This document shows, piece after piece, positions 8,594 through 34,842 of a stretch of DNA of 40,531 bases; position 1 is the stretch's first letter, and the number at the start of each line of letters is the position of its first letter. Below the pieces are notes generated by a model that ran no database searches, had not been told where the DNA came from, and worked only from the letters and a program-made list of their open reading frames with translations. The translations under genes and the position numbers were made by a program. The stretch covers positions 1-40,531 of the forward strand of contig JAJTER010000016.1 of NCBI GenBank assembly GCA_021299835.1, written 5' to 3'. Source of the DNA: Saprospiraceae bacterium. Its GTDB lineage: Bacteria; Bacteroidota; Bacteroidia; Chitinophagales; Saprospiraceae.

Positions 8594-9907
8594 TTATGAA
8601 TTAACAGGGTATCGCTTGCTTCGTATAGTTATTCCCAAAAAGCCAAGTAAGATCCATAAATGTCTGAAATTTTGTATGTCCGTTGAAATGGCTTCCAGCA
8701 TGAAATAGGAAAAGGAGCAAATGAAAATCCATTTTAAGCCGTTAGAATCAGATAATCCGACGACTTCTTTATATATGGTAAACATTAGGAATAGTAAGGC
8801 TAAAAATCCTGATATTCCATATTCTGCCAAGGTCCCTGTGTAAGTTGAAAGGGGGTCGTACACTGGTCTTGAAATGGTCTCTTTAGTTTTTTTGTATTTT
8901 AAATTAATGACATTCAATAAGTTACCTCCTCCGCATCCAAGAATAGGGTGTTCAATAAATTCCTTTATAGCATTTTCCTTTTGCACATAGTACCAGGATT
9001 TATATAAATAATAATTATCTATCCTTAAAAATGGGATAGCCAGGCCATAAACCTCTTTTTCCCGGAATGGTTTTTTGGTTACCATAATATGGGTTAATAA
9101 AATTGAACTTATAATAAGGAAAGCAGCGAAAATCCGGATGAATATTATTCCTTTGTTTTTACTTTTTAAATGCGAAATAAAATATATAACCAGTATAGCT
9201 AAAATAAATGGTAGAGATTTTCCATACGTGCCAAGCAACATTAATCCTATAAATACCATCGAAAGAATAAAGTCTCTTTTTTTAATAGGAATAACTTTAA
9301 TTTTCCCATTCATTAACGCTATAATTATCCAAAAAGGAATACTTAAAATACTAACTAACATTACAGGTTCATTGGTTAACACTTTTAAGCGATATAAATC
9401 ACCAAAATAGGGATAAGAATAAAAGATTTGAAATACACCTATATTTATATGTTGTGTTAGTAATATTAAGCCTATAAAAAGGGTAATTATAATTAAAGCC
9501 AGTTGTAAAGAAAATGCTTTGACAAAGAATAGTTCTATTTCTTTCGCCTTAGAACGAAAAAATATAAATTGAATTAAAATATATAAACAAATCAAATAAA
9601 ATTGCCCGGAAAGTTCAATGAAAGTGGTCACATTAAAATGTAAAATTAAATTTATAGTTCCTACCATAAGCCATAGCATTATAGCTTTATCTAAGGTTGT
9701 CATTTTAATATTTTTCCAATCGGCCCATTTAATTTGGGGAATAAATAGGAGTATTAGAATTACAAATATTATTTCGGGAACTTGAATTTTACTATTAAAT
9801 ATGGGTAGCCAAATAATTTTTTGAAATGGGATGGTTATAATATAGAGGCAAAGTAATAGTAGATAGTTTTTTTTATTTTTAAGATTATAATAGCCGAATT
9901 CTCCCAT
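8594..9907 (-). CDS. O-antigen ligase/polymerase family membrane protein (Wzy/WaaL-like)
   Basis: A 437-residue protein with roughly eleven to twelve hydrophobic segments. The large loop before the last helices carries EHPILGCGGGN (where the family usually has HP-LG-G-G), followed by DPLSTYTGTLAEYGISGF, corresponding to the Wzy_C region that ends in a helix with E-GI-G. Such enzymes polymerise lipid-linked oligosaccharide repeats or ligate them to an acceptor in the outer leaflet of the inner membrane. The usual H-N pair before the last block reads D-S here, which is a variation. It begins 13 bases after the stop of the GT4 gene upstream, so the pair is probably co-transcribed. Polymerase versus ligase cannot be separated from sequence alone. 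Confidence 0.82.
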   Translation of the reverse strand: MGEFGYYNLKNKKNYLLLLCLYIITIPFQKIIWLPIFNSKIQVPEIIFVILILLFIPQIKWADWKNIKMTTLDKAIMLWLMVGTINLILHFNVTTFIELSGQFYLICLYILIQFIFFRSKAKEIELFFVKAFSLQLALIIITLFIGLILLTQHINIGVFQIFYSYPYFGDLYRLKVLTNEPVMLVSILSIPFWIIIALMNGKIKVIPIKKRDFILSMVFIGLMLLGTYGKSLPFILAILVIYFISHLKSKNKGIIFIRIFAAFLIISSILLTHIMVTKKPFREKEVYGLAIPFLRIDNYYLYKSWYYVQKENAIKEFIEHPILGCGGGNLLNVINLKYKKTKETISRPVYDPLSTYTGTLAEYGISGFLALLFLMFTIYKEVVGLSDSNGLKWIFICSFSYFMLEAISTDIQNFRHLWILLGFLGITIRSKRYPVNS

Positions 9908-9920
9908 TTCTATTATGTGT

Positions 9921-11057
9921 TTATTTTAATATTTCATATACAATATCTTTAATTTGGCTAGCTATTATGGCATCATCAAATTCATTACATGCTTTTATTC
10001 TGCCTATTTCTCCCATTAATTTCTTTTCTTCCGGAAGTAGGGATAAGAATTTTAAGAAAGTATCTGCCAGTGCTTTTGAATTTTTTATTTCCACTAAGTA
10101 TCCATTTTCTCCATCTTCCACTGCTTCTCTACAACCTGCAGTTTGAGAAGTAATGATTGGTTTTCCCATAGCCATGCCTTCTGTAATGGTTCTTGCAATT
10201 GCTTCACGGTAGGAAGGTAATACGATGCAATCGGATGAGGCAATAACTTCTCTTATATCTTTAACAAAGCCAAGATATTGGATTATTTCATCTTCAACCC
10301 ATTGGATTAATTCTTTTTTATCAATGGTTGCTGGATTATTCTCATCTATTTCCCCAACAATTAAAAATTCAACATCATTTCGCTCTTCTCCCACTATTTT
10401 GGCAGCTTCTACAAATTCTCTTATCCCCTTATCGTATAACAATCTACCTATAAAGGTGAAGACTGTTTTTTTTCTTTCTTTAGTATTTTCCATTGGTTTA
10501 TACCATTGGGTATTAACGCCACATCCTTTTATGGAAATAGATTTTTGTTTAGTTATAATGTTTAAAGCTTCGAATAGTTCCCTATCCTCAATGTTTTCAA
10601 AGATAAATTTTTCATTGAACTTGCCAGAAATTTTATATAGGGAGGTGACAATACTTTTCAGGAGGCCGCCGTGTATAAAAGGGTAACCTAATCCGGTAAT
10701 AATGGCAATAGATTTTAAATGTAAACTTTTAGCCGCAAGACTTCCATAAATATTTGGTTTGTTTGTAAAATGAAGTATTACATCGGGATTGATTTCCTTA
10801 TAAATACGCCTCAGCTCTAAAAACAACCTAATATCATTCAAAGGATTGATGCCATCTCTAACTAAACGTTGCAGATTATAGTGTAGAACGGAAGGATATT
10901 TATCTTTATAAATCAGGTATTCATCAACGGGTGCGACTACAATTACTTTAAATCCCTCACCTAAAAATTGTTCAATCAGATTTAATCTAAAATTATAAAT
11001 ATTCCATGTGGTATTAGCTACCAAAGCAATGATTCTCCCCTTCTTGTTCTCTTTCAT
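9921..11057 (-). CDS. glycosyltransferase family 4 (PglA-like)
   Basis: About 378 residues from ATG 11057, which is preceded by purine-rich sequence; ATG 11084 is in frame and adds nine residues. The N-terminal GT-B domain opens with ALVANTTWNIYNFRLNLI, typical of enzymes related to bacillosamine-linked N-acetylgalactosaminyltransferase PglA and other GT4 enzymes adding an early sugar to undecaprenyl-PP-linked intermediates. The donor domain has FIGRLLYDKGIREFVEAA and PSYREAIARTITEGMAMGKP, which contains the EX7E motif, then TAGCREAVEDGENGYLV. It is the first gene of the - strand polysaccharide run. The exact sugar transferred is unknown. Confidence 0.87.
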   Translation of the reverse strand: MKENKKGRIIALVANTTWNIYNFRLNLIEQFLGEGFKVIVVAPVDEYLIYKDKYPSVLHYNLQRLVRDGINPLNDIRLFLELRRIYKEINPDVILHFTNKPNIYGSLAAKSLHLKSIAIITGLGYPFIHGGLLKSIVTSLYKISGKFNEKFIFENIEDRELFEALNIITKQKSISIKGCGVNTQWYKPMENTKERKKTVFTFIGRLLYDKGIREFVEAAKIVGEERNDVEFLIVGEIDENNPATIDKKELIQWVEDEIIQYLGFVKDIREVIASSDCIVLPSYREAIARTITEGMAMGKPIITSQTAGCREAVEDGENGYLVEIKNSKALADTFLKFLSLLPEEKKLMGEIGRIKACNEFDDAIIASQIKDIVYEILK

Positions 11058-11084
11058 ATATCGTTCTTTCAAACCTATATTCAT

Positions 11085-18196: not shown

Positions 18197-19249
18197 TCAA
18201 AAAATATTTTTCTTGAGTTGAGTAGTAACACCTATATGGGTTAAACCGCCGCCAAGATGATAGATAGATCGGCCGAAATCAAAGGAAAATCGTTTTATTT
18301 TAAGGCCAAATCCAAAGGAAAAGCCATTTAATCCACCAACGCCAACGGTACCAAATTCCATTCTACTTCTATGATTGTAAGCCATTCTTAATTTGAAATT
18401 TTCATTTGCGCCCACAATAAGTTCTCCATTGAGAATAATATGCCTGAATAAATTATCAACAAAAATGGCAAGCTTCGCCGGTTCAGCTAATTCCTCTCCG
18501 ATAATAAGCCTCGCTGATTCATTATCTGGATTGTAATATCTTACGTTCCAACGATTCAGGTTGTTATAAAGAAGCGTAAACCGAAAGGGTAAATAACGTA
18601 ATTTTTTTGAAATAGCTATTTGTAAATCACTAGGTAAGGGTTCCTTGCTGTTACCTGAAAAATATGGATTAAGTTGTACGCCAGCATTTCTATATACAAT
18701 ACCAATGGTAGTAAGCTTTGAAGAATCAGTGTAAAATAAGCCGGCATCTAAAACCAGCGCGGAAGAAACAAATTCACCTAAGGAAGATTGAGCGAAAGAC
18801 AGGGTAGTACCAAATTGCAATCTGTCATCAATGGAATGGGCAACTCCGACGGACATGCTGTTTTCATTTGCCTTAAATGTTCCATTTGTCTGAAAATACT
18901 CGTCAGTTCGGGGCATTTCACCGTACTGAATAAAATGAAGACCAAGATGTAACCATGTTTTGTTATAAGCTATAGTAAACGCATACGCAGCATTTCCACT
19001 TTGTATATTTCCGGGTAAAAAAAAATGATTTAGTCCAAGTTTCCCTGTCATATTCTGATTTAAAACAGCTGGATTACCGCCAATCAAATTAATATCACTA
19101 TCAGAAACTGAAATTTGGTTTCCACCTAGTCCAGTTAATCTGGCGGAAGGAGGAGATGCTAAAAAATTAAAAGTAGCTCTTCCTCCGGGGAATTGTCCAT
19201 ATACAGCCTTGGCCGCAAAAAGAAAGAAGAGAAAGAATACATTTTTCAT
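18197..19249 (-). CDS. porQ: type IX secretion system protein PorQ
   Basis: A 350-residue outer-membrane beta-barrel-type protein. A Sec signal peptide (residues 1-18, cleavage before QFPGG) is followed by the PorQ-like opening ATFNFLASPPSARLTGLGGNQISVSDSDINLIGGNPAVL. The rest is alternating beta strands ending in a short basic tail. Known of the family: PorQ belongs to the type IX secretion machinery of Bacteroidota and is linked to the PorU-PorV-PorZ attachment complex at the cell surface. Its ATG overlaps the stop of the upstream MORN-repeat gene in an ATGA, suggesting translational coupling. It is the last gene of the birA-to-porQ run. Confidence 0.85.
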   Translation of the reverse strand: MKNVFFLFFLFAAKAVYGQFPGGRATFNFLASPPSARLTGLGGNQISVSDSDINLIGGNPAVLNQNMTGKLGLNHFFLPGNIQSGNAAYAFTIAYNKTWLHLGLHFIQYGEMPRTDEYFQTNGTFKANENSMSVGVAHSIDDRLQFGTTLSFAQSSLGEFVSSALVLDAGLFYTDSSKLTTIGIVYRNAGVQLNPYFSGNSKEPLPSDLQIAISKKLRYLPFRFTLLYNNLNRWNVRYYNPDNESARLIIGEELAEPAKLAIFVDNLFRHIILNGELIVGANENFKLRMAYNHRSRMEFGTVGVGGLNGFSFGFGLKIKRFSFDFGRSIYHLGGGLTHIGVTTQLKKNIF

Positions 19250-19850: not shown

Positions 19851-21164
19851 TTAGGAAATAACCGATCTTCCCATACTTTCATAGTAGAATCCCTCCTCAG
19901 TCATCTGGTCTAAATCGTATAAATTCCGACCGTCAAAAATGTGAGGTTGACGCATTAACTGTTTCATTATCTTAAATCCAGGTGCTCTAAACTGACTCCA
20001 TTCTGTGACTATAGCGAGAGCATCAGCTTCAATCAGTGCTTCGTAAGGTTCATTAACATAAATAATACGATCTCCGAGTGTTTTTTGAACATTAGGCATA
20101 GCCTCAGGATCAAAAGCTTTAACCGTTGCGCCGGCTGCCAGCAATTTTTCAATGATAAACAAAGCGGGAGCCTCTCTAATATCATCGGTATTAGGTTTGA
20201 AGGCCAGGCCCCAAACGGCAATATTCAAGCCTTTAAGATTACCATTAAAACGATTAATTATTTTATTTGCAAGTATTATTCTCTGATTATCATTCACTTG
20301 CATTACAGAAGAAAGGATGTGGAAAGGATAATTGTTATCATTTGCTGTTTTTGCCAAGGCTTGTACATCCTTAGGGAAACAACTGCCGCCATAACCGACC
20401 CCTGGAAAAAGAAAACGTTTTCCAATTCTTGAATCTGAACCCATGCCCTTCCTTACCATGTCAACATCGGCGCCTAAGATTTCACAAAGGTTAGATATTT
20501 CATTCATAAAAGAGATACGCGTTGCTAAATATGCATTAGCAGCATATTTGGTCATCTCCGCAGATCTTACATCCATAAAGAAAATAGGGTTGCCCTGACG
20601 AACAAAAGGTTCGTAAAGCTGTCGCATTAATTTTTGAGCTCTTGCGGAACTTGTTCCAATGACTACCCTATCAGGTTTTAAAAAATCATCGACAGCGACG
20701 CCTTCCCTTAAAAATTCTGGATTTGAAACGACATCAAATAGATTTTTTGATAAACTTTGTTCCAATATAGCTGAAACTTTTTCAGCGGTTCCAACGGGTA
20801 CGGTACTTTTATCAACAATGACTTTATAGTCAACAATGATTTCAGATAAATCTTTAGCTACCTTTAGGATGTATGATAAATCGGCAGAACCATCTGCCCC
20901 AGGCGGTGTTGGCAAGGCTAAAAAAATAATTGCCGCATCTTTTATGGCCTCTGGAAGATTTGTTGTGAACGAAAGCCTGCCTTGTTTAGTATTCCTTTCA
21001 AAAATTATATCCAGGCCGGGTTCATAAATAGGTACTTCCCCTTTTTTTAATCTATCTACTTTATTTGCATCAATATCAACACAGATTACATGGTTGCCAG
21101 TTTCAGCAAAACAAGCACCGGTTACTAAACCAACATAACCAGTACCAACAACAGCTATTTGCAT
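19851..21164 (-). CDS. ugd: UDP-glucose 6-dehydrogenase
   Basis: A 437-residue enzyme oxidising UDP-glucose to UDP-glucuronate with two NAD+. The N-terminal Rossmann motif is VVGTGYVGLVTGACFAETG (residues 5-23), followed by IYEPGLDIIFERN. The catalytic cysteine is in PGVGYGGSCFPKDVQALAKT (about residue 260), and WGLAFKPNTDDIREAPAL opens the C-terminal UDP-binding domain. Full length for the family. It is nine bases downstream of the sorbosone-type dehydrogenase gene in the same run. UDP-glucuronate could feed the polysaccharide genes found elsewhere in this window; that link is inference. Confidence 0.95.
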   Translation of the reverse strand: MQIAVVGTGYVGLVTGACFAETGNHVICVDIDANKVDRLKKGEVPIYEPGLDIIFERNTKQGRLSFTTNLPEAIKDAAIIFLALPTPPGADGSADLSYILKVAKDLSEIIVDYKVIVDKSTVPVGTAEKVSAILEQSLSKNLFDVVSNPEFLREGVAVDDFLKPDRVVIGTSSARAQKLMRQLYEPFVRQGNPIFFMDVRSAEMTKYAANAYLATRISFMNEISNLCEILGADVDMVRKGMGSDSRIGKRFLFPGVGYGGSCFPKDVQALAKTANDNNYPFHILSSVMQVNDNQRIILANKIINRFNGNLKGLNIAVWGLAFKPNTDDIREAPALFIIEKLLAAGATVKAFDPEAMPNVQKTLGDRIIYVNEPYEALIEADALAIVTEWSQFRAPGFKIMKQLMRQPHIFDGRNLYDLDQMTEEGFYYESMGRSVIS

Positions 21165-31247: not shown

Positions 31248-31712
31248 ATGTTAAAAATCGGTGATACAGCTCCCTCGTTTACTTTGTTCTCAAGTGAGAA
31301 GAATGAAGTATCTCTCTCAGACTTCCAGGGCCAATCGGTAGTCATTTTGTTTTTCCCCCTTGCATTTACTGGTGTTTGTACCACTGAATTGTGTAATACC
31401 AGAGATGATATCCAGTCTTACAAAAATTTGAACGCCCAAGTTATTGCTATTTCGGTAGATTCTCTTTTTACCTTGGAAAAATTTAAAGCAGAACAAAATT
31501 TGAATTTCCCATTATTGGCTGATTTTAATCGCACGGTTTCTGCAGATTACGGTTGTCTGTATGAAGATTTTGTTTTGGGAATGAAAAAAGTGGCTAAAAG
31601 GTCTGCATTTGTCGTCGATAAAAATGGAATTATCCAATATGCAGAGGTATTGGAAAGTGCGGGAGATTTACCGAACTTTACCGCCGTTAAAAGTACCTTA
31701 CAAAATTTGTAA
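31248..31712 (+). CDS. peroxiredoxin (AhpE/Bcp type)
   Basis: A 154-residue thioredoxin-fold peroxidase reducing peroxides in the cytoplasm. The active site FFPLAFTGVCTTELC has the PxxxTxxC pattern with the peroxidatic cysteine in GVC; a second cysteine five residues on (C-T-T-E-L-C) is where PrxQ/Bcp proteins have a resolving cysteine. The PLAFTG wording is closer to AhpE. The region after it (FPLLADFNRTVSADYGCLYE, KRSAFVVDKNGIIQYAEV) is standard. It is followed ten bases later by clpS, so the two are probably co-transcribed. Confidence 0.93.
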   Translation: MLKIGDTAPSFTLFSSEKNEVSLSDFQGQSVVILFFPLAFTGVCTTELCNTRDDIQSYKNLNAQVIAISVDSLFTLEKFKAEQNLNFPLLADFNRTVSADYGCLYEDFVLGMKKVAKRSAFVVDKNGIIQYAEVLESAGDLPNFTAVKSTLQNL

Positions 31713-31722
31713 TTATATAGCT

Positions 31723-32037
31723 ATGACGTTTTCTCACGCAGATACGGACGAACTGATCTTAACCGAAGTAATTGAGGAATTAGACAGCGATAATACAGGT
31801 AATGTAGCCAGATTAATTGTGTTTAATGATGAGCATAATACATTTAATTGGGTTATAGATTGTTTTATGCAGGTTTTGAATCATTCAGAAGCACAGGCAG
31901 AGCAGTTAGCCCTCCTTATTCACTTGAAGGGTAAGGCAACCGTCAAAACGGCACCAAAAAGAGTGCTAAAGCCTTTTAAGGACTCTTTAACGGAGAAAGG
32001 TTTGTCTGTAATCATTGAGGAAGACAGTGGCAAATAA
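31723..32037 (+). CDS. clpS: ATP-dependent Clp protease adaptor ClpS
   Basis: A 104-residue adaptor that delivers N-degron substrates to ClpAP. The binding pocket region reads VFNDEHNTFNWVIDCFMQVL, equivalent to the family YNDD-NT-E-V---L, and it is followed by HSEAQAEQLALLIHLKGKA, the conserved helix with the H-KGKA segment. The acidic N-terminal 30 residues are typical of the flexible extension. ATG 31723 is chosen; a longer in-frame start at 31609 lies inside the peroxiredoxin gene. Two strong terminators follow the stop. Confidence 0.93.
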   Translation: MTFSHADTDELILTEVIEELDSDNTGNVARLIVFNDEHNTFNWVIDCFMQVLNHSEAQAEQLALLIHLKGKATVKTAPKRVLKPFKDSLTEKGLSVIIEEDSGK

Positions 32038-32054
32038 ATGAAAGAATTTAAAAC

Positions 32055-32085
32055 AAAGCCCCAGAGTAAATCCCTGGGGCTTTTT
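32055..32085 (+). terminator. intrinsic terminator after clpS
   Basis: AAAGCCCCAG (32055-32064) and CTGGGGCTTT (32074-32083) form a perfect GC-rich 10-bp stem with a nine-base loop, ending in a T-run. It begins 18 bases after the clpS stop. Confidence 0.85.
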
Positions 32086-32161
32086 AATTGGCTGAAAACT
32101 AATTCTTGAATGTATAATCTATCTTAAGCTACAATATAAATTTCAAATTTTACAATTCCAA

Positions 32162-32200
32162 AAAATAATAGGGGAATTAGGAGTTCCCCTATTATTTTTA
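32162..32200 (+). terminator. second intrinsic terminator, 16-bp perfect stem
   Basis: AAAAATAATAGGGGAA (32162-32177) and TTCCCCTATTATTTTT (32185-32200) are exact reverse complements with a seven-base loop. The A/T tracts make it functional in both directions. It lies about 80 bases after the first terminator and isolates the gene at 32266. Confidence 0.8.
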
Positions 32201-32235
32201 AAAATGATGGGATATTTTTTGACCAATTTTCGTTC

Positions 32236-32243
32236 TATATTTG
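32236..32243 (+). promoter_or_regulatory. candidate promoter -7 box ahead of the propeller/winged-helix gene
   Basis: TATATTTG matches TAnnTTTG and lies 22 bases before the ATG at 32266. The nearest upstream TTG is 14 bases away, shorter than the usual 17-23, so the -33 element is weak or absent. Confidence 0.45.
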
Positions 32244-32265
32244 TAAGGCCGAAAAATCTTAATGT

Positions 32266-33705
32266 ATGTTCAGAAATGTTTTTATTTGTTGTCTATCGCT
32301 CATCCTTTTCATTTCTGAAATTACCTGTCAATCAAGAAATCAATCATTAATTCTATCTTCTGATCAATTTAATATTGCGGTAGATCCTCAAAATGGAGAT
32401 TATATTGTCCTTGCAAAAGATAGTTTTTATTTATTTAATTTATCAGTATCGGGAGGATGGAGGTCTTATAAGTACAAAAAGAACGACCTGGATACGGTAT
32501 TGAATCAACCTGTAGAATTGAACTTCATTCATAATGCCAAACAAGTTCTTTTCTTTTCAGGTGGCGGAGGACACGTATATCTTTTTAAAGATTCTTCTAT
32601 CCTTCGTCAGGATAAATCATTTCTGCAAAAAAATCAATTTGGTGCGGCAAGCTTTGAGTTTAAAGATAAAATCATTCTTTATAGCGGGTATGGCTTTTAT
32701 TCGTATAAACCATATATGACTGAATTTTCTGATAAAACCAACGAATGGTTCTTAAGACCTTATGCTTCTAATCAATATCTACCTAAAGGTAGGCAAGCAG
32801 TCGTTTATCAGATAGACAAAAAACGGGGTTATTTTTATATGTCTTCGGGATATACTTTAAACAAGCCGTATTTTGAAGATGTAGAAAATTTGGATTTAAA
32901 TGATGTCTGGAGGTTTGACCTGAACACAAACAAATGGAAACAACTTGGGTACATAAAAGATGATAGGAGAATAAGAAATCTTCGGTTTCCTTTCTTTGCC
33001 ATGGGGAATTTTTACGCGATTGAAAAAGGACCTAATAATGCTGTCGTAAAAATAAATATAGCTGATAATTTATTTGAAAAATTTAAAACGGACCATCTGG
33101 TTGATCAGTCTTTAGTAGAATATGGGACGGTATATAATGCTAAGGATGAAAATATTCTTCTGGTAATTAAAGGCAAGGATTTAAGGGACAAACCAGGTTT
33201 TGTGATTAGAATAGTTCCGCTCAAGGAATTAGAAAAGAACTTAATTATTTCCAAAAAGTATTATTTCACTGTATTTGATAGGTTATGGCCCTTTGTTTTG
33301 ATGATCGTGGTTCTTATGAGTGTAGTATTTTTCAATAAGGCGTTTAAGAAAAGAAAAAACAATCAGCGAAATGAAAAGCCAGTCATTCATTTTAATCTAG
33401 CTGAAAACGAATTTACTTTTAGTGAAATCAAGATACCTTTTGAGGATGAACAGATTCAGTTTCTACATTATTTGGTGGAAAACGGAGGAGAAATTTCAAA
33501 CAATGACTTGTTAGACTTTATTAAAAAGGGTCAGGAATCCTTAGATACTTTAAAGAAAAGGAAGCTAAAATTAATAATGGATATAAATCAAATTTTTAAA
33601 ATTTGCACCGGATTGAGTAAACCGTTTTTACTTGAACTAAAAGATGATAACGACAGAAGGTATAAAGACTATCTTATTAACCCTATTTATGAGGTGAGGA
33701 TGTAA
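32266..33705 (+). CDS. membrane protein: exported propeller-like sensor, one TM helix, cytoplasmic winged-helix-like domain
   Basis: A 479-residue protein I cannot assign to a named family. Residues 1-21 are a signal peptide (FICCLSLILFISEITCQ). Residues about 30-325 are beta-rich with kelch-like turns (LFFSGGGGHVYLF, IILYSGYGFYSY, DVWRFDLNTNKWKQLG), consistent with a propeller outside the cytoplasm. A single helix at 340-357 (LWPFVLMIVVLMSVVFF) is followed by basic KKRKNNQR, giving an N-out/C-in topology. The cytoplasmic ~100 residues (FNLAENEFTFSEIKIPFEDE, QIQFLHYLVENGGEISNNDL, LDTLKKRKLKLIMDINQIF, DNDRRYKDYLINP) read like a winged-helix DNA-binding domain. It would then be a ToxR-like one-component regulator. 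It has its own promoter box and is insulated by terminators. The ligand and targets are unknown. Confidence 0.7.
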   Translation: MFRNVFICCLSLILFISEITCQSRNQSLILSSDQFNIAVDPQNGDYIVLAKDSFYLFNLSVSGGWRSYKYKKNDLDTVLNQPVELNFIHNAKQVLFFSGGGGHVYLFKDSSILRQDKSFLQKNQFGAASFEFKDKIILYSGYGFYSYKPYMTEFSDKTNEWFLRPYASNQYLPKGRQAVVYQIDKKRGYFYMSSGYTLNKPYFEDVENLDLNDVWRFDLNTNKWKQLGYIKDDRRIRNLRFPFFAMGNFYAIEKGPNNAVVKINIADNLFEKFKTDHLVDQSLVEYGTVYNAKDENILLVIKGKDLRDKPGFVIRIVPLKELEKNLIISKKYYFTVFDRLWPFVLMIVVLMSVVFFNKAFKKRKNNQRNEKPVIHFNLAENEFTFSEIKIPFEDEQIQFLHYLVENGGEISNNDLLDFIKKGQESLDTLKKRKLKLIMDINQIFKICTGLSKPFLLELKDDNDRRYKDYLINPIYEVRM

Positions 33706-33710
33706 AATAC

Positions 33711-33740
33711 AAAAAGCCAACCTTTTCAGATTGACTTTTT
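33711..33740 (-). terminator. terminator between the regulator gene and tRNA-Asn, better on the - strand
   Basis: AAAAAGCCAA (33711-33720) and TTGACTTTTT (33731-33740) form a 10-bp stem with a single mismatch; on the - strand that position is a G-U pair, so the hairpin is stronger for the tRNA transcript. T-runs on both ends allow bidirectional use. Confidence 0.65.
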
Positions 33741-33741
33741 G

Positions 33742-33815
33742 CGCCTCAGGTAGGGCTCGAACCTACGACCTACGGATTAACAGTCCGCCGCTCTAACCGG
33801 CTGAGCTACTGAGGC
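33742..33815 (-). tRNA. tRNA-Asn (anticodon GTT)
   Basis: A complete cloverleaf of 74 bases on the - strand: acceptor GCCTCAG pairing CTGAGGC, discriminator G, D-arm with AGCTCAGCCGGTTAGAGC, anticodon loop CTGTTAA on a GCGGA/TCCGT stem, and T-arm GTAGGTTCGAGCCCTAC. The 3' CCA is not encoded. The promoter and the terminator around it indicate a single-gene unit. Confidence 0.95.
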
Positions 33816-33854
33816 AGGTTAGATGTACCTTAAGATATTTTCAAAAGGCGACTG

Positions 33855-33886
33855 CAAAAATAGTAGGATTATTAAATAAATTGCAA
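33855..33886 (-). promoter_or_regulatory. tRNA-Asn promoter (Bacteroidota type)
   Basis: On the - strand TTG (33886-33884), a 21-base spacer and TATTTTTG (33862-33855) match the Bacteroidota consensus exactly, about 40 bases upstream of the tRNA 5' end. Confidence 0.7.
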
Positions 33887-33918
33887 TATTTACACAATAA
33901 ATTTTAAAAAAAATCACA

Positions 33919-34842
33919 ATGAAATTATTAACTGTTGGTACTGTGGCATTTGACGATATTGAAACGCCATTTGGTAGAGCGGAAAGGGCTATTGGTGGTG
34001 CTGCAACTTATATATCATTAGCCGCATCATACTTTGCCGAGCAGGTTAGAATCGTTTCTGTAGTGGGTGACGATTTTCCTGAAAGCGTTTTGCAAGACTT
34101 AACAAGTCGCAATATTGATTTGACAGGGCTGGAAGTAAAGAAAGGCGAAAAGTCGTTTTTCTGGGCGGGACGATACCACAATGACATGAACTCCCGGGAT
34201 ACCCTTGAAACGCAACTCAACGTATTAGCCGATTTTAATCCTATTCTTCCTGAAGCATATAAAAGTTCAGAATTTTTAATGTTAGGAAACCTGACGCCAG
34301 ACATTCAATTATCGGTTATTGAACAAATGGTGGGTAAGCCAAAATTAATTGCGTTGGATACCATGAACTTTTGGATGGATATTGCCATGGAAAGTCTCAA
34401 AAAGGTATTAAAAAGAATTGATATGCTAATTATCAATGACGAAGAAGCCAGGCAACTAGCTGGTACTTATTCTTTGGTGACGGCGGCGGCAATCATTCAT
34501 GAAATGGGACCTAAATTTGTTGTGATTAAAAAAGGAGAACACGGCGCCCTTTTATTTGAAGGGGAAAACATATTTTATGCTCCTGCATTACCCTTAGCGG
34601 AGGTTTTTGACCCAACAGGTGCCGGCGATACCTTTGCAGGCGGATTGATGGGGTATTTAGCTATGACCGGAGAGGTTTCTTTTGAAAATTTAAAAAGAGC
34701 TATTATTTACGGTTCAGCAATGGCTTCATTTTGCGTTGAAAAGTTTAGTACAGAAAGACTGCTGAACCTTTCTAAAGTTGAAATTGACGCGCGGATAGAT
34801 AAATTTGTTAAACTGGTTAATTTTGATTCTATTCCAGTATAA
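33919..34842 (+). CDS. PfkB-family carbohydrate/nucleoside kinase
   Basis: A 307-residue ribokinase-fold kinase. The N-terminal MKLLTVGTVAFDDIETPFG with the GGAATYISLAASYF di-glycine hinge fits the family, and the C-terminal signature FDPTGAGDTFAGGLMGYLA (near residues 229-247) contains the anion-hole GAGD with the catalytic aspartate. In between, LIINDEEARQLAG and VVIKKGEHGALLF are usual PfkB strands. The substrate cannot be told; adenosine, fructose and ribose kinases share these motifs. It starts 104 bases after the tRNA 5' end and divergently from it. Confidence 0.9.
   Translation: MKLLTVGTVAFDDIETPFGRAERAIGGAATYISLAASYFAEQVRIVSVVGDDFPESVLQDLTSRNIDLTGLEVKKGEKSFFWAGRYHNDMNSRDTLETQLNVLADFNPILPEAYKSSEFLMLGNLTPDIQLSVIEQMVGKPKLIALDTMNFWMDIAMESLKKVLKRIDMLIINDEEARQLAGTYSLVTAAAIIHEMGPKFVVIKKGEHGALLFEGENIFYAPALPLAEVFDPTGAGDTFAGGLMGYLAMTGEVSFENLKRAIIYGSAMASFCVEKFSTERLLNLSKVEIDARIDKFVKLVNFDSIPV

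Follow-up and report, generated by a model that had tools for sequence, protein, structure and literature searches.

A probable one-component transmembrane transcription regulator with a kelch-like ectodomain and a predicted C-terminal winged helix, from an unnamed family of Bacteroidota

A gene of a Saprospiraceae bacterium (assembly GCA_021299835.1, contig JAJTER010000016.1) raises the question of whether a single polypeptide could both receive a signal outside the inner membrane and act on DNA inside the cell. The initial annotation of the stretch analysed here (40,531 nucleotides, referred to as the window) had proposed exactly this: a signal peptide, an exported propeller-like region, one transmembrane (TM) helix and a winged-helix domain at the C-terminus. 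The open reading frame itself is as annotated in its coordinates, its ATG start and its length of 479 codons, encoding 479 residues. Upstream lies a clpS-like gene (31633–32034; 54.4 bits to PF02617 in Pfam); downstream, the gene is convergent with a tRNA-Asn gene (33741–33815, minus strand), after which a PfkB-family gene follows (33919–34842, Pfam). All features are listed in the table below.

Orthologs were searched in 60 genomes comprising the genus and wider relatives. At E 0.001, matches were obtained in exactly the seven members of the genus, the window included, and in none of the other 53 genomes, which are wider relatives outside the genus. The gene is full-length in all seven, and the six congeneric orthologs share 86–93% identity with the window protein; five of the records with an ortholog are named, and these are metagenome-assembled genomes under the labels Bacteroidetes, Saprospiraceae, Haliscomenobacteraceae or Haliscomenobacter hydrossis. 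Comparison of the window with each of the six orthologs (Nei-Gojobori) gave dN/dS values of 0.10–0.17 for the whole gene and 0.05–0.12 for residues 386–479, so that this is a real, protein-coding gene under purifying selection, which is strongest on the C-terminal domain.

Features of the regulator locus, in window coordinates.
Feature	Position	Strand	Basis
Transmembrane regulator gene, 479 aa	32266..33705	+	ORF; 7/7 genus members; dN/dS
N-terminal hydrophobic, signal-type segment, ~residues 1-23	32266..32334	+	hydropathy only
Putative exported kelch-like ectodomain, ~residues 24-335, limits approximate	32335..33270	+	Pfam kelch matches
Ectodomain family signature RxDxS...NQ...GYG...K...W, residues 114-161	32605..32748	+	15-sequence alignment
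Transmembrane segment, residues 342-360	33289..33345	+	hydropathy 2.11
Basic juxtamembrane stretch, residues 361-372	33346..33381	+	sequence; 6 K/R in 15 residues past TM
Predicted C-terminal winged-helix domain, OmpR/PhoB fold, residues 373-479	33382..33702	+	pLDDT 88.6; VIA Z 10.7
Helix 3, residues 426-448, the proposed recognition helix	33541..33609	+	model; K/R at 430, 433
Predicted wing, residues 455-471; D463 and R465 invariant, Y469 nearly so	33628..33678	+	model and alignment
Terminator-like hairpin behind clpS, the first of two upstream of the gene	32055..32083	.	minus-strand call; 7/7 identical
Symmetric hairpin, second of the upstream pair; terminator-like on either strand	32161..32199	.	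scan and folding
Hairpin between convergent regulator and tRNA-Asn genes	33709..33742	.	minus-strand call
Promoter-like TTTG-N14-TATATTTG	32218..32243	+	frequency as by chance; TATATTTG in 6/7 genus members

The gene had also been described as walled off by two terminators and served by its own promoter, and both statements hold in part. A scan of 31700–34000 found five terminator-like sites where 1.2 were expected. The middle hairpin, with its stem at 32171–32188, was called on both strands and is the sole one of the three hairpins called as a terminator on the plus strand; folded over its full extent it reaches −21.2 kcal/mol (z −4.4), a value that none of 200 shuffled sequences equalled. 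The outer two were called on the minus strand only. Read by eye, their plus-strand T-runs lie partly within the stem, which accounts for the missing call, and both are likely plus-strand terminators all the same. The first is identical in all seven genus members over 32055–32087, and the last borders the tRNA-Asn gene. As for the promoter, the TTTG-N14-TATATTTG pattern is well placed, ending 22 bases before the ATG, and its TATATTTG box is kept in six of the seven genus members, with TATATTCG in the seventh (L004); against this, patterns of its type occur six times in the window where 5.85 are expected by chance. Its 14-base spacing is short relative to the consensus. From the hairpins together with the promoter pattern, the regulator is likely a stand-alone gene, and the promoter is plausibly real. 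The spacer that separates the upstream pair of hairpins (73 bases, 32088–32160, plus strand) has a mean column identity of 97% across the seven genus members, more than the third codon positions of the regulator (75–87% identity to the window). It might be an operator, or a small RNA that terminates at the second hairpin; among 18 Rfam matches tRNA alone exceeded its gathering score, and none within 32088–32160 did so.

Elsewhere in the window, 8594–11084 and 19851–21164 (minus strand) carry genes of surface-polysaccharide type—O-antigen ligase-like (just under the cut-off), group 1 glycosyltransferase and UDP-glucose/GDP-mannose dehydrogenase—and a 350-residue open reading frame at 18197–19249 (minus strand) has no Pfam match at E 0.001. 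The idea that the 437-residue open reading frames of the window are duplicates proved wrong.

The part of the protein ahead of its C-terminal domain agrees with the proposed layout. Residues 5–23 form a hydrophobic segment (hydropathy 1.93) that, judged from hydropathy alone, is consistent with the signal peptide claimed for it. The single later hydrophobic segment has three Lys or Arg residues within 15 positions before it and six after it, as would be expected for an N-out/C-in orientation, and the claimed pairing of one TM helix with a basic juxtamembrane stretch is thus borne out. Two Pfam models match the region between the two segments above their cut-offs, Kelch_3 with 24.1 bits (cut-off 22) and Kelch_2 with 23.6 bits (cut-off 21.3), which turns the annotated propeller-like region into a kelch-like ectodomain. 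A full-length AlphaFold2 model, built from the seven genus sequences, has a mean pLDDT of 44, with block values of 23–58 in the ectodomain. With this model Foldseek ranked kelch proteins first (E 4.5e-5), at TM-scores of about 0.2, and VIA-align 2 returned mixed propellers with a best Z of 7.4, within the range of unrelated models. The ectodomain is kelch-like by its sequence motifs, and may close into a kelch-type propeller, one of about six blades. The signature columns given in the table are invariant in an alignment of 15 sequences. A few relatives weakly match kelch-type sugar mutarotases (E 0.02–0.05), which is only a hint as to what the ectodomain may bind. A PHROGs match to phrog_12615, of unknown function (E 8.8e-4), covers the kelch stretch and was set aside.

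Pfam (E up to 10) gave nothing over its cut-off in the C-terminal part of the window protein, and neither Pfam nor NCBIfam holds a model that recognises the domain; among 23 family members scanned at E up to 1, no DNA-binding regulator model scored better than E 0.028. The OmpR-type Pfam model in particular had no match in the window protein (E up to 10) or in any of the 23 members (E up to 1). Residues 368–479 were folded alone with 23 family sequences (model number plus 367 gives the residue number). The resulting model has a mean pLDDT of 88.6 and a pTM of 0.82, all five models falling between 86.6 and 88.6. Three strands are followed by a helix (394–405), a short strand, a second helix (412–419), the third helix (426–448), two wing strands and a C-terminal strand. 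VIA-align 2 placed PrrA first, with Z 10.7 and an rmsd of 2.3 over 92 residues. PhoB (Z 9.6) and ToxR (Z 8.6), both in complex with DNA, are among the 50 matches listed, as is CadC (Z 9.3). Judged by their titles, 49 of the 50 are effector domains of OmpR/PhoB type; the odd one is a structure of the Nse1/3/4 complex. Foldseek against the PDB reported nothing that passed E 0.001; its list opens with PrrA (E 0.022, probability 1.00), DrrD, BaeR, VbrR, PhoP, SaeR and CadC, with MarR proteins below these OmpR-type entries.

Such modest Foldseek E-values, together with the poor full-length model, are what one would cite in favour of a misassigned fold. This we regard as highly improbable: the five models of the isolated domain agree at high pLDDT, the same helices and strands recur in the full-length model, which yields a compact C-terminal domain with pLDDT 67–81 over residues 381–450, and sequence profiles independently, if weakly, reach winged-helix proteins. 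The C-domain profile matched the winged helices of DrrD (E 0.03) and of SaeR and ToxR (E 0.3–0.9), and a broader one matched the wings of AdcR, ZitR, OhrR and MexR (E 0.012–0.4) among unrelated rows. Residues 373–479 are thus predicted to form a winged helix of the OmpR/PhoB fold, and the structure prediction and fold search put forward with the annotation as a means of refuting its winged helix at about residues 370–479 led instead to the domains of OmpR, PhoB, CadC and ToxR.

A winged helix need not bind DNA, and such domains can serve as protein-binding modules. The C-terminal domain could accordingly have lost DNA binding and dock a cytoplasmic protein, in which case the whole would be a kelch receptor or scaffold anchored in the membrane, with a partner passing on the signal. 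Several observations fit this. In the window protein the first two helices are acidic and the wing has a net charge of −1, the lowest among 43 rows (mean +1.5); and the Nse1/3/4 complex is one of the 50 structural matches listed. Also counting against DNA binding by the window protein, position 457 is Glu where 26 of 40 rows have Arg, and strong basic charge (+4) is confined to the first half of helix 3. The family as a whole points the other way. Over 40 rows (the 43-row family alignment minus three near-identical genus rows), D463 and R465 of the wing are invariant, and Asp-x-Arg is found in all 43 proteins checked; position 433 is Arg or Lys in 39 rows and position 430 Lys or Arg in 36, with Y469 kept in 38 and N441 in 36. 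Contact with DNA would require such features, basic residues in helix 3 and a wing arginine that does not vary. The other 49 structural matches listed are effector domains of transcription regulators, and the gene neighbourhoods offer no conserved candidate for a partner and no linked target gene: with the thresholds applied, none of the other gene families is common to more than three of 21 loci, and two small neighbour clusters are common to three. We therefore hold docking of a partner to be unlikely and DNA binding, as judged from the predicted fold and its conservation, to be the better account of this domain.

The annotation had further proposed a search for the same architecture across Bacteroidota, and this recovered the order ectodomain, TM segment and winged helix in eight families, three of them outside the class of the window. 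A profile built from the genus matched 16 of 395 phylum genomes at E 0.01. Three of these were judged chance (G522, and the short or broken frames of G359 and G315) and one was the window's own genome; the remaining 12 matched in the ectodomain, and wherever the C-terminus lies on the contig, the TM segment and C-domain are present as well (L056 runs off its contig). The C-domain profile A6, built from these relatives, matched 20 of the 395 genomes at E 0.01, three judged chance (G251, G232 and G473, the last a 47-residue frame with a stop). With the second-round profile A7, run at E 0.001 over 298 genomes from the order of the window, 22 genomes had a match, of which one, a Cas9-like protein (G763), was dropped. 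The 43-row profile A8 matched 22 of the 395 genomes at E 0.001; four were judged chance, leaving 18. These four were a repeat protein (G395) that matched over model positions 4–103 with E 4.3e-4, a MarR-like protein (G423) and two short frames (G554 and G508).

The accepted genomes belong to eight families (f1, f14, f20, f25, f27, f43, f49 and f62), f43, f49 and f62 being labelled outside the window's class. The distribution is widespread yet patchy, most sampled genomes having no match, and some genomes hold multiple copies (four in G744, three in G769). The domain order is common to the 43 proteins checked, a set that leaves out L091 (whose open frame holds only TM segment and C-domain), L056 (cut off by its contig), L055 (the latter half of a fused protein), the six genus orthologs and repeat fetches. 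A TM-type segment with a hydropathy of at least 1.49 is found in 42 of the 43, the exception being L060, whose value of 0.97 is unreliable as the sequence ended at residue 610; in 40 of the 43, more Lys and Arg residues follow the segment than precede it. Among 31 proteins found via the C-domain profile, 29 carry the strict ectodomain motif (GGxG, then any residue, then an aromatic residue or Leu), L077 having SGYGYY instead and L098 lacking the motif. No accepted hit has the C-domain behind another kind of sensor, an observation that is partly circular, as hits were accepted by architecture; those with a different architecture scored poorly (E 3e-4 or worse) and, once read, were put down to chance. 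One member (L050:718–2916, minus strand) is longer, at 733 residues; its additional N-terminal stretch of about 230 residues weakly matches an OB-fold model, below the cut-off. Members that stand in tandem on the same strand occur as a pair in two cases (L074 and L081 in G284:C6; L106 and L110 in G744:C1).

Several other searches were set aside. Within the family of the window, a whole-protein profile matched four of 150 genomes, namely three of the genus and a weak hit in the kelch stretch (G156). At E 1 the genus-only C-domain profile A2 had matches in 43 of 150 genomes, the best beyond the genus being E 0.0098; none of the loci that were read (L032, L041–L044) is a relative, and three look like MnmE. 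Searched against the PDB, A2 found a designed protein first (E 0.0003) and then superoxide dismutases, and profile A1 had no match there. A plasmid search had none either.

Among known systems, SusR is the closest in layout. It is reported to be a Bacteroidota regulator of one chain with a periplasmic sensor, an inner-membrane anchor and a C-terminal cytoplasmic DNA-binding domain, and acts with no phosphorelay (PMC3878776). The window protein would share this layout, N-terminal sensor, membrane anchor and C-terminal DNA-binding domain in one chain, and two weak matches led us to test for kinship: the NCBIfam SusR model in one of 15 members (E 0.0073) and Pfam DUF6377 in L048 (E 1.3e-4, below the cut-off), a name not found in the literature searched. 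Kinship was not borne out. As we read them, three SusR-family proteins (NF058541, over the cut-off) combine a helical sensor with a coiled coil and a LuxR-like HTH, whereas the window protein has kelch motifs and a predicted winged helix; the winged-helix profile A7 gave no match above the inclusion threshold at their C-termini, and NF058541 had no match in the window protein and none in its genome at E 1e-5. An N-terminal sensor joined to a C-terminal DNA-binding domain thus has precedents in Bacteroidota, in SusR and in hybrid two-component systems, with other domains (PMC3878776). The hybrid systems of Bacteroides carry an AraC-like domain where the window protein would have a winged helix, and Pfam detected no histidine kinase or receiver domain in the window protein (E up to 10) or in the relatives scanned.

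In fold, the closest systems by the model are the OmpR/PhoB effectors and the DNA-binding domains of ToxR and CadC, which are N-terminal in their own proteins. The window protein resembles ToxR and CadC in combining, in one chain, a predicted OmpR-type winged helix, one TM segment and a putative periplasmic sensor, and differs from them in that the order is inverted and the sensor kelch-like. The annotated description of a ToxR/CadC layout turned around is therefore apt in that comparison; the order as such is not new, given SusR and the hybrid systems. OmpR/PhoB response regulators share the DNA-binding fold, whereas the window protein is membrane-anchored and has neither a receiver domain nor an OmpR-type Pfam match. 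The Asp-x-Arg of the wing resembles MarR wings, as seen in the profile matches to AdcR, ZitR, OhrR and MexR, and a MarR-like protein (L165) is a weak hit of the family profile; unlike MarR, the C-domain has strands before its first helix, as in OmpR/PhoB, and is membrane-anchored and C-terminal.

A DNA-binding domain and a TM segment in one protein define a transmembrane transcription regulator, and here the former is given by the predicted fold and the latter by hydropathy. A 2023 census of such regulators reports Bacteroidota as enriched and identified DNA-binding domains by Pfam models (PMC10269533); the word kelch is absent from its main text. Because no Pfam model recognises the C-domain, a Pfam criterion of this kind would not see it. 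In the literature covered (titles and the beginnings of abstracts, few subscription journals), we recognised no description of a membrane regulator combining kelch and winged-helix domains; an earlier one may exist. The annotation had known no named family for this protein, and with neither a Pfam nor an NCBIfam model nor an earlier description found, we have found none.

Taken together, the protein is quite probably, as first annotated, a transmembrane transcription regulator of the one-component kind, one that would switch genes directly from the membrane and belong to an unnamed family within Bacteroidota. The N-terminus would be exported, with the kelch-type sensor in the periplasm, and the single TM helix would cross the inner membrane; the winged helix, tethered about 12 residues from the membrane, would bind operator DNA. 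Binding of a ligand or partner to the ectodomain may change dimerisation or conformation, a change that the TM helix would carry inward, so that the two DNA-binding domains of a dimer would be placed on DNA directly, with no kinase, phosphoryl transfer or release. The gene, its domain order, the predicted fold and the conservation of the family are established by computation; orientation in the membrane, DNA binding, dimerisation, ligand and targets are inferred. Release is the point on which another scheme differs: an ectodomain signal would lead to cleavage near the membrane and free the winged helix. Release by proteolysis is known for other membrane transcription factors, and the lone TM helix, with the short basic stretch next to it, would suit such a scheme. 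In one genome (G394; C8, ~258.3–261.5 kb; L055/L060), two copies share an open frame of 1223 residues; this would fit a dimeric working unit, and release does not call for two copies in one chain. Action only after proteolysis we consider very unlikely, and receptor and regulator in one chain is the most economical reading.

The principle of such a switch is known; the combination is new, and the DNA-binding family has gone unrecognised. It is fairly probable, though a little less so than the reading of the window protein itself, that we are dealing with a phylum-wide unnamed class of direct membrane gene switches: a kelch ectodomain (RxDxS...NQF...GGYGFW), a TM segment and a new winged-helix family of predicted OmpR topology with an invariant DxR wing, unseen by the Pfam-based census, present in three to four copies in some genomes and as a putative single-chain dimer in one. 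A family whose DNA-binding domain Pfam does not recognise would be missing from regulator counts based on Pfam. With sensor, helix and DNA-binding domain each present once, it would be a minimal receptor for studying the passage of a signal across a membrane to DNA with no kinase, and the order inverted relative to ToxR and CadC, together with the natural two-copy fusion, would make the geometry of the dimer directly testable.
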